Below, piece after piece: positions 26,860-30,307 of a DNA stretch of 64,000 bases. The translations under genes were made by a program, and so were the position numbers. The notes under the pieces are model-generated. The model was given only the letters and a program-made list of their open reading frames with translations. It did no database searches and was not told the origin of the DNA. The stretch is taken from the NCBI GenBank assembly GCA_022649165.1, contig JALCNR010000005.1, forward strand, positions 62,001 to 126,000, given 5' to 3'. This DNA comes from Actinomyces sp. (GTDB lineage Bacteria; Actinomycetota; Actinomycetes; Actinomycetales; Actinomycetaceae). Position 1 is the stretch's first letter, and each line of letters begins with the position of its first letter.

Positions 26860-29421
26860 TCAGCCGGCGCGGCGCAGCCTCAGCGAGTTCAGCACGACGA
26901 ACACCGAGGAGAAGGCCATCGCCGCGGCCGCGATCATGGGATTGAGCAGGCCGGCGATGGCGAGGGGGACCATCGCCACGTTGTAGAAGAACGCCCAGAA
27001 CAGGTTCTGCTTGATGACGCGCAGCGTTTGCCGCGACACGCGGATGGCGGTGGCCGCCGCCGTCAGCTCGGAGTTGACCAGCGTGATGTCCGCGACCTGG
27101 ATCGCGACGTCGGTTCCCGATCCCATCGCGATACCGAGCCCCCGGTTCCCGGCCTGGGCCAGCGCGGCCGCGTCGTTGACGCCGTCTCCGACCATGGCGA
27201 CGACGCGGCCCTGGTCCTGCAGCGACCTGACGACGTCGCGCTTCTGGTCGGGCATGACCTGCGCGATGACGCGCTCGATGCCGACCTGCCTGGCCACGTG
27301 CTCGGCTGCCGCCTGGTTGTCGCCGGTGAGCAGCACCGGCTCGATTCCGAGCTCCCGCAGCTGTCCGATCGCCGCGGCGGAGGTCGGCTTGACGGTGTCG
27401 CGCACCACCAGCACCGCATGCGCGGCGGCGCCGGCCAGATGCCCGGGGAGGACGCGCTCGCGGCGCGGGGCGGGATCCGCCGCCGGGCCGCTCGCCGCTC
27501 CGGGGAGCGCACTCCCCGACGAGGGCGCCGCCGCGGACTCCGTCAGGATCCCCGGCCGGGTCTCCGACCGCGATCTGACGATCCCGTGGTAGCCGGCGTT
27601 GTCGACGACCTCCTCCAGCTGCGCGTCGGTGTAGGGCCGGTCCAGGGTGATCGTCGCCGACTCCGTGGCCAGGTTGACGGAGGCGGAGACGCCCGGCAGC
27701 TTCCCGAGCTTGCGTTCGACGCGCCCCACGCAGGAGGCGCAGGTCATGCCCTGGACGTCCATGTCGACGCGGACGAGCGCGGGGTCCTCGGCGGGGATCC
27801 CCCCGGAGGGGGCGTCGTCGGCGGGACGCCGCCCGGTGCCCGGGGCGATGCGGGCGGCCTCGGCGCCGATGCCGGCCTCCGGGTCGTCGGCCCAGCCGGG
27901 CACCGTGGCCAGGAGCACCGCGGAGGCGCCGGAGCCCTCGGCCTCCCGTGCCGCGTCCGCCAGCTCCCCGGGCACCTCCACGCCCAGGCCACGCAGCCAG
28001 GACAGCCGCCCGACCAGGGCCAGGATGCCGCCCTGGCCGCGGTCGGAGCGGACCAGCGCGGACACCCCCGCCCCGGCGTGGTTCGTGAAGGCGGCGACCG
28101 GGGCGGCCTCCACCCCGGAGGCGCGGACGCCCGCGACGATGGCCCGGGCCATCGGATGCTCGGAGGGGGACTCGACGCCGGCGGCCACGGCCAGCAGGCG
28201 GTCCTGGGCGTCCTCGTCGCCCGGGGCGGTGACGACCCGTTCCAGGCTCATGCGTCCCGTGGTGACGGTGCCGGTCTTGTCCAGGACCATGGTGTCGATG
28301 GCGCGGGTCTGCTCGAGGATCTCGGCGGACTTGATGACGATGCCCAGCTGCGAGGCGCGGCCGGACCCGACCAGCAGGGCTGTGGGCGTGGCTAGGCCCA
28401 GGGCGCAGGGGCAGGCGACCACCAGGACGGCGACCGCGGCGGTGATCGCGGCCTGGGCGCCCGCGCCGCTCGCCAGCCAGCCGATGAGCGTGGCCGCGGA
28501 GATCGCCATGATCACGGGCACGAAAACGGAGGAGATCCTGTCCGCCAGCCGCTGGACGGGCGCCTTGCCGGCTTGCGCCTCGGTGACCAGGCGGCCGATC
28601 TGGGCCAGCGTCGTCTCGCCGCCGACACGGGTCGCGCGCACCACGAGCGACCCCCAGGTGTTGACCGTGGCGCCGGTGACTTCGTCCCCGGGCGAGACGT
28701 CGGCGGGGACGGACTCGCCGGTCAGCATCGAGGCGTCCAGCGCGGAGGATCCGTCCTCGACGCGTCCATCCGTGGCGACCTTCTCACCGGGGCGGACGAG
28801 GAAGAGATCGCCGACCTGCAGTTCCGCGACGGGGATCCGTTCCTCGGATCGGGAGCCGTCCTCGTCGACGCGGAGGCGCGTGGCCTCCTTCGCGCCGAGT
28901 TCCAGCAGCGAGCGCAGCGCGTCGCCCGCGCGGTAGCGGGTGCGCGCCTCGGCCAGGCGCCCGACGAGCAGGAAGACCACGATGACGCAGGCGCCCTCGA
29001 AGTAGATCTCGGCGTGGCCGCCGCCGGCGGCCGTGCGCGGGACCAGCGACATCTGCATGCGCATGCCGAGCATTCCGGCGCCGCCGAACAGCAGCGCCCA
29101 CCAGCTCCACAGCGTGGAGGCGATGACGCCCAGGCTCACCAGCGTGTCCATCGTGGTCGAGCCGTGGACCCCCGCCTGGAACGCCGCGCGGTGGAAGGGC
29201 CACGCGCCCCACGTCACCACCGGGACCGACAGCACGGCGACCACCCATTGCCAGCCCGTGAACTGCAACGGGGGGACCATGGCCAGGATGACGATCACCA
29301 GGGTCGGGCCGGCGGTGACGAGGAGGCGGCGGCGCAGCATCTCGGCGCGCGCCCTGGCCCCCTCCCCGACCTGTCGGGTGGCGTGTGCGCTGTGGGCGGC
29401 GGGTGCGGACGGGGTGGACAT
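26860..29421 (-). CDS. copA: Copper-exporting P1B-type ATPase with internal HMA domain
   Basis: The 853-aa pump exports Cu(I). P-type landmarks are in order: TGES loop near 240, CPC metal site in [16 protein letters not shown] near 340, the phosphorylated Asp in DKTGT near 380, HP in SEHPMARA near 420, TGDN near 699 and GDGVND near 745. The surprise is the metal-binding HMA domain: [18 protein letters not shown] lies near residue 559, between HP and TGDN, in the ATP-binding loop, flanked by Pro/Ala/Gly linkers. CopA proteins normally carry HMA at the N-terminus, where this one has none. The start at 29421 ([11 protein letters not shown]) fits. It is the last gene of the csoR-copZ-copA set. 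Confidence 0.92.
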
Positions 29422-29522: not shown

Positions 29523-29762
29523 TCAGAAGTCGCGGGCGACGCCGACGAGGTCGTAGCCGGCCTCGGAGACGGCAGCGCGGAGGTCGTCGTCGTTCACGCC
29601 CTGGTCGGTGACGACGGTGACCTTGGAGGTCCCCCCCGAGTTCAGGATGACGTCGACGTTCTGGACGCCGGGGACCTCCTTGAGCTCCTCGGTGACGGAG
29701 GCGACGCAATGCGAGCAGGTCATGCCCGTGACGGAGAGCTCCACGGTGCGATCGATGGCCAT
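29523..29762 (-). CDS. copZ: Copper chaperone (heavy-metal-associated domain)
   Basis: The 79-aa protein is a single HMA domain with the metal site [11 protein letters not shown] near 13-23 and the usual beta-alpha-beta-beta-alpha-beta pattern. It should carry Cu(I) in the cytoplasm and hand it to CopA, encoded next. The start follows the spacing of the copper operon. Confidence 0.9.
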
Positions 29763-29812: not shown

Positions 29813-30094
29813 TCAGGACTTCACCAGCCGGGCGATGGCGTGAGTGGCCTCCTGGACCTTCTCGCGCCCCTCCTCGTCGGAGCGTTTCGCCGCGTCGACG
29901 ACGCAGTGGTTGATGTGGTCCTCGAGCAGGCAGAGCGCCACGGAGTCCAGCGCGCTCTGGATCGCCGAGATCTGGGTGAGGACGTCGATGCAGTAGGTGT
30001 CCTCGGAGATCATGCGCTGGACGCCGCGGACCTGCCCCTCGATGCGGCGGAGCCGCGTGAGGTACTGATCGGTGGATCCGTGGTATCCCGCCAT
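29813..30094 (-). CDS. csoR: CsoR family copper-sensing repressor
   Basis: The 93-aa all-helical protein has [19 protein letters not shown] and [18 protein letters not shown]; the Cu(I)-binding Cys-His-Cys set is C35, H60 and C64 in [13 protein letters not shown]. It represses its own operon when copper is low and releases DNA on binding Cu(I). An operator-like palindrome lies upstream at 30155-30171. It is the first gene of the copper operon. Confidence 0.93.
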
Positions 30095-30154
30095 TGACCG
30101 CCTCCTGGTCGGTGTCGGAGACCGGGGCGGCGCCCCGGCCAGGACACCATGAAT

Positions 30155-30171
30155 ATACCCGTGGGGGGTAT
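30155..30171. promoter_or_regulatory. csoR operator: CsoR-like operator
   Basis: ATACCC-GTGGG-GGGTAT is an inverted repeat with a GC centre, the shape of CsoR operators (TATACCC...GGGTATA). It lies 60 bp before the csoR start and 137 bp before the divergent lipase-like gene, so it may control both. Confidence 0.75.
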
Positions 30172-30307
30172 TCGAGTCAAACGCCGGGCCAGAGGGCCCC
30201 GGGGCTCGGGCCCGATCGTCTGGACCCGCCCCCTGTCGTGGGCCGGGCGGCGCGCGGATACGCTGGGAGGCGTCGGCGCAGCGGGCCCGAGCACGGGGAG
30301 GAGGACC

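Follow-up and report, generated by a model that had tools for sequence, protein, structure and literature searches.

The window, a 64,000-nucleotide stretch of Actinomyces sp. DNA, carries on its minus strand three genes that read in one direction, in the order CsoR/RicR-type repressor gene, copZ and copA, behind a promoter-like site:

30152..30180, minus strand: promoter-like site overlapping a TACCC-N5-GGGTA palindrome, candidate CsoR operator (promoter pattern search and sequence)
29813..30094, minus strand: csoR/ricR-type copper-sensing repressor, 93 aa (Trns_repr_metal, E 6.4e-32; best NCBIfam match RicR, 126.9 bits, below the cut-off of 175)
29523..29762, minus strand: copZ, stand-alone copper chaperone, 79 aa (HMA, E 5.4e-14; best NCBIfam match the CopZ family, 64.7 bits, below the cut-off of 85)
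26860..29421, minus strand: copA, putative Cu(I)-exporting P1B-1 ATPase with an internal HMA domain, 853 aa (intact frame, ATG at 29421, end at 26860)

The pattern search found a single promoter-like site between 26800 and 30300, against 0.0 expected in shuffled sequence, and the palindrome that it overlaps resembles what we take to be the operator of copper-sensing CsoR/RicR proteins. With a repressor gene and copZ beside copA, all in the same direction, the locus has the predicted make-up of a CsoR-type copper cluster. The CopA protein has the TGE, DKTGT, HP and GDGVND motifs of the P1B core, as well as the membrane motifs of the P1B-1 group (CPC in M4, YN in M5, MxxSS in M6). From these motifs and from the cluster we infer that it is a P1B-1 ATPase transporting Cu(I). 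We read it as the usual Cu(I) exporter found in csoR-copZ-copA clusters, with its metal-binding domain (MBD) probably relocated.

Position and fold of the internal HMA domain

The elements of CopA, in the order in which they occur in the protein, are as follows:

28405..28413, minus strand: CPC metal-site motif of M4, residues 337-339 (sequence)
28267..28281, minus strand: DKTGT phosphorylation motif, residues 381-385 (sequence; invariant in A1 and A3)
27892..28236, minus strand: first part of the N-domain, about residues 396-510, including SEHP and hairpin strand one, 500-510 (sequence, structure model)
27778..27891, minus strand: linker 1, residues 511-548, predicted disordered (pLDDT below 50 at 515-545)
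27559..27777, minus strand: HMA domain, residues ~549-621 (Pfam PF00403; modelled secondary structure and confidence)
27730..27750, minus strand: GMTCASC metal-binding motif, residues 558-564 (sequence)
27427..27558, minus strand: linker 2, residues 622-665, largely predicted disordered (pLDDT below 50 at 624-653)
27382..27426, minus strand: hairpin strand two (666-677) and return to the P-domain, residues 666-680 (structure model)
27172..27189, minus strand: GDGVND motif of the P-domain, residues 745-750 (sequence)

The original prediction, made from the letters of the sequence, placed GMTCASC between the HP motif and TGDN and found no HMA at the N-terminal end. The translation bears out the former (SEHP spans residues 420-423 and TGDN 699-702) and Pfam the latter. 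The Pfam matches are E1-E2_ATPase at 180-357, HMA at 555-612 (E 2.3e-14) and the HAD hydrolase on either side of the HMA; the N-terminal tail is free of HMA. Thus, the canonical domain order of CopA, with an MBD at one terminus, is replaced by one in which the single HMA lies at 549-621 and both tails lack it. This domain has the ferredoxin-like fold and the GMxCxxC motif of PF00403 (Pfam, structure model). In the 2.8-Mb genome (96% complete), PF00403 at E ≤0.001 identifies two HMA domains, the internal one of CopA and CopZ.

In the predicted structure, the HMA sits between both strands of a β-hairpin of the nucleotide-binding (N) domain, in place of the turn. Of the 268 residues in the P/N-domain structure of CopA (3a1e), 266 can be aligned with residues 357-798 of the model, and the N-domain fold is predicted to be intact around the insert (chains missing from the list of structure matches carry no negative evidence). 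The idea of an HMA inside the ATP-binding loop holds as to its location within the N-domain and needs correcting as to its form, in that a hairpin turn is replaced and the HMA hangs on two largely disordered linkers while the fold is preserved. These linkers are put at ~35 and 43 residues, with measured medians of 42 and 48. Since both are largely disordered in the AF2 model, the internal HMA may merely float. The same hairpin serves as insertion site in the internal-HMA proteins that were aligned or printed.

Occurrence and conservation of the internal layout

The survey covered the family to which the window belongs (213 genomes, 36 genera; genus g6 left out of the reading), with layout scored by motif search. 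The internal layout was found in 53 intact proteins, each from a different genome; these genomes belong to nine genera of this one family (g1, g10, g17, g20, g21, g24, g25, g30 and g35). An N-terminal HMA was found in 30 proteins from 27 genera. Two further proteins, the second pump of G008 and that of G159, were scored as lacking the motif. The tally excludes L190 (G065), L191 (G036) and L192 and L205 (G030), in which the HMA motif was not seen and orthology was not judged, and L034 (G008) and L036 (G013), which are interrupted by N or by the end of a contig. Single-span profile matches were obtained in 58 genomes; G116, G149, G152, G156, G185 and G211 were left out of the reading. Both layouts occur in g24 and g30, in different genomes; none of the proteins read combines the two, and the one genome of g19 that was read has neither. 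Within the genus of the window, 30 of the 35 genomes searched encode the same domain order in an unbroken frame. The layout is in pieces in G013 (two contigs), G031 (contig end) and G008 (a run of N, two frames), G001 was not judged (463 N), and a search of G030 returned no orthologue.

The original prediction named a frameshift or an assembly error at 27480-27900 as a finding that would refute it. This explanation is extremely improbable, and we reject it as the origin of the arrangement: the layout stands in intact frames of 53 separate genomes. Many previously described homologues with the same order would likewise have refuted the prediction; such homologues do exist, as genome sequences and not, so far as the open-access literature shows, in print.

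Outside the family, an HMA motif in the N-domain was seen in none of the 80 named loci listed. In 77 of these the motif precedes DKTGT; the other three (L059, L081, L084) contain no ATPase frame with an HMA motif, and L070 and L088 have an additional one close to the C-terminal end. A sample of 396 genomes from the order, searched at E ≤1e-190 (a cut-off that would miss a weaker internal-HMA protein), gave 67 matching genomes, with single-span matches confined to the window's family. A sample of 396 genomes from the phylum, partly overlapping the former and searched at E ≤1e-25, gave 335; among the matches listed, the HMA was spanned only in the window's genome, the best other match (135 bits) covering the P-domain side. 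Among the best 5000 plasmid records, all matches were below 60% identity, and those listed cover at most 82%.

Two observations came up in the course of this survey. In genome G009, the internal-HMA copA (L037) is matched twice with identical scores (C1:14617-17148 and 2614895-2617426), which reflects either a duplication or an assembly overlap. The second copper-type ATPase of G008 (L124) is devoid of HMA and carries three CPMHPEV...CPxCGM repeats in its N-terminal tail.

Among 18 proteins of the genus, mean pairwise identity is 70% in the HMA, 50% in the first part of the N-domain, 16% in linker 1 (50% gaps) and 18% in linker 2 (residues 622-655; 60% gaps). The presence of the HMA is therefore not a matter of chance, judging from these alignments, as the domain is 70% identical between flanking linkers at 16% and 18% in which half or more of the columns are gapped. 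CxxC is kept in all 53 internal-HMA proteins, as are WAFxYN and MxxSS (the latter sought anywhere in the frame), and CPC in 52. The HMA thus appears to be retained for its metal site. Across genera (13 proteins in each set), identity is 52% for internal HMAs (cores, 63%) and 63% for the N-terminal HMAs of the family (cores, 66%). This difference suggests that constraint on the internal HMA may be weaker than on the N-terminal one.

Origin of the internal domain

In a tree of HMA domains (28 internal, 20 and 15 N-terminal and 30 from CopZ; few columns and many open forks), a 100/100 split sets the CopZs apart from every CopA HMA, and the internal HMAs fall among the N-terminal ones. Mean best identity of the internal HMAs is 63% to the N-terminal HMAs of the family and 44% to CopZ. 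The tree leads us to reject copZ as the source of the internal HMA. Given the separation of CopZ and the place of the internal domains among N-terminal ones, the HMA was probably moved or copied within copA.

A tree of rpoB (46 genomes, a single gene analysed by a quick method with SH-aLRT support only; G157 gave no rpoB and G182 just 703 residues) unites the 14 internal-HMA genomes sampled in a single clade that has 18 members (SH-aLRT 98). The four exceptions in this clade are G187, G203, G166 and G167. In the first two, copA (L185 and L184, respectively) groups with that of G130 and G162 in another subclade (100/100). Their copA was therefore probably replaced, possibly by horizontal transfer. 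The other two are of a different kind. The copA genes of G166 and G167 belong to the same gene clade as the internal-HMA copA of G164 and G165 (100/100), and all four lie behind the same four upstream genes in the same order, with the HMA N-terminal in G166 and G167. By clade and gene order, the G166 and G167 genes are orthologues of the internal-HMA copA of G164 and G165. Between the HMA of G165, which is internal, and that of G167, which is N-terminal, identity is 75%, about the same as between the cores (76%); among the HMAs compared, only that of G164 is nearer to the G165 domain (91%). On this comparison, one domain occupies two different places of one gene within this genus.

The copA frame of G166 (L187) has only 112 residues between DKTGT and GDGVND. 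Most of the N-domain is missing and the membrane and P-domain parts look intact; the gene may be degenerate or misassembled, or encode an unusual pump.

These data bear on how often the domain changed place. The HMA could have been inserted repeatedly and independently into one hairpin, as opposed to a single event with later exceptions: the copA core tree, which does not recover a single internal-HMA clade, needs four layout changes and a smaller copA tree five, and genus g24 has both layouts at one locus. We consider this rather unlikely. The AU test does not reject one clade of internal-HMA copA genes (p 0.222), every sampled carrier falls within the 18-genome rpoB clade (with the reservation that this is one gene and a quick method), and the same hairpin is used throughout the proteins aligned or printed. 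The rpoB and copA trees conflict on the branching order within the genus of G164 to G167. Most likely, a single relocation took place in an ancestor that about ten related genera share, followed by vertical inheritance with later exceptions.

The gene of G167 provides a hint as to a possible vehicle. Its hairpin, free of HMA, holds ~60 extra residues, mostly in a stretch in which a repeat (GAGAGGTCTGACCCG and variants) occurs; the N-terminal linker of the same CopA is filled with this repeat as well. At the DNA level, a dispersed repeat with the core GGTCTGACC lies within the coding sequence at both copA linkers (L179, 1373-1480 and 2981-3118). It has 61 matches in the G167 genome at up to three mismatches (none for the reversed control) and, at the same stringency, no match in the sister species G164 to G166. 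Inserts are evidently tolerated in the hairpin, and the two linker sites are able to acquire the same DNA. Shared DNA at the two sites would be a substrate for recombination between them; that such recombination moved the HMA is speculation.

Possible role of the internal domain

The window's CopA shares its catalytic core, membrane motifs and N-domain fold with AfCopA and LpCopA, copper pumps from archaea and bacteria with a terminal MBD. It differs from them in having its HMA within the N-domain hairpin and none at the N-terminus. The core and the HMA-type domains also recur in ATP7A, ATP7B and plant HMA4, whose MBDs are described in PMC10973460 as lying in the N-terminal tail; the outer ones are proposed there to be autoinhibitory, interfering at the A/P interface of eukaryotic pumps. 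CopZ, encoded next door, has the HMA fold and the GMTCxxC motif in common with the HMA of CopA, but is a separate protein whose HMA is of another lineage (100/100). The window's CopA thus remains a P1B-1 pump; what sets it apart is the internal HMA and the evidence for movement of a domain within its gene. The original prediction knew of no enzyme with this layout, and the open-access literature, which leaves subscription journals mostly uncovered, yielded no description of a copper pump with an internal HMA. Nor did the open-access literature yield a copper-released lock in the ATP-binding lobe of any P-type ATPase.

The role of MBDs in copper pumps is disputed between delivery, sensing and autoinhibition, according to PMC11970713. 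The model presented there for LpCopA makes the MBD a copper sensor that lifts autoinhibition between the actuator (A) and N domains, as opposed to a delivery device. Transferred to the present case, this gives the explanation that we rank first, although its chances are no better than balanced: the familiar copper-sensing, autoinhibitory MBD would now approach the A/N cleft from a tether on its N-domain side. CopA's own N-terminal MBD would have been relocated into the turn of the N-domain β-hairpin. At low copper, the apo-HMA and its linkers would occupy this A/N cleft, where they would impede E1-E2 movements. CopZ would hand Cu(I) to the CxxC of the HMA, and Cu(I) bound there would loosen the docking and let the pump run. 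The HMA would reach the cleft from the tail in N-terminal-HMA pumps and from the N-domain itself in internal-HMA pumps. The more inclusive proposal, that the HMA is a domain moving within copA between N-terminal tail and N-domain hairpin and that its internal form is a copper-released lock in the ATP-binding lobe, is put forward tentatively, its chances being somewhat short of even.

Evidence from other pumps, as given in PMC11970713, cuts both ways. The MBD of AfCopA is tentatively located between the A and N domains in a low-resolution EM model cited there. The autoinhibitory reading is weakened by the fact that the flexible tail is credited with the inhibition in LpCopA, that the MBD core of LpCopA is placed beside the A-domain in one state and by AlphaFold on the membrane platform, and that AfCopA activity was reportedly unchanged by loss of its MBDs (PMC11970713).

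The original prediction envisaged a direct coupling of copper binding to nucleotide binding. Such coupling is possible, but the long linkers argue against a rigid one, and docking at the A/N-domain cleft would fit the published MBD model better. Taken as a whole, the original prediction is partly supported.

The position of the HMA could also be irrelevant, the domain acting as a tethered copper buffer or a docking site for CopZ and the hairpin being merely permissive. We rank this next and regard it as doubtful, though a realistic possibility. In its favour, the two linkers are long and variable, and for the most part disordered; the ~60 extra residues in the G167 hairpin, in a pump with an N-terminal HMA, indicate that unrelated inserts are tolerated; within one genus, positional orthologues carry the HMA at one site or the other; and conservation across genera is slightly lower for the internal than for the N-terminal HMA. 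Against this stand the retention of the internal layout across nine genera and the shortness of the printed hairpins of N-terminal-HMA pumps, G167 and some modestly longer ones (e.g., L148, L162, L163, L188) excepted.

Less likely, and in our estimate improbable, is ion delivery, whereby the internal HMA swings on its long linkers to the membrane platform and passes Cu(I) to the entry site. CxxC is invariant, linkers of ~35 and 43 residues (medians 42 and 48) could in principle span the distance, and delivery by MBDs has been proposed, according to PMC11970713, for yeast Ccc2 and for the core-proximal MBD of ATP7B. However, the HMA no longer adjoins the first membrane helices, the neighbouring gene encodes a CopZ that could deliver directly, and the isolated MBD core of LpCopA failed to stimulate the MBD-free pump (PMC11970713).

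In these pumps evolution has shifted the HMA away from the membrane platform and into the nucleotide domain, with its metal site retained, and the arrangement, common to many species, amounts to a natural test of the role of the HMA. If the internal HMA has kept a regulatory role, the domain need not adjoin the entry platform, and the A/N-cleft model gains weight. If its removal has no effect, position-free buffering gains weight. The orthologues of both layouts that share a locus within one genus could serve directly as controls.

In one internal-HMA pump, L141 of G161, CACALG takes the place of the CPCALG found in the others, and SEHG that of the HP motif. The metal specificity of this pump may differ.
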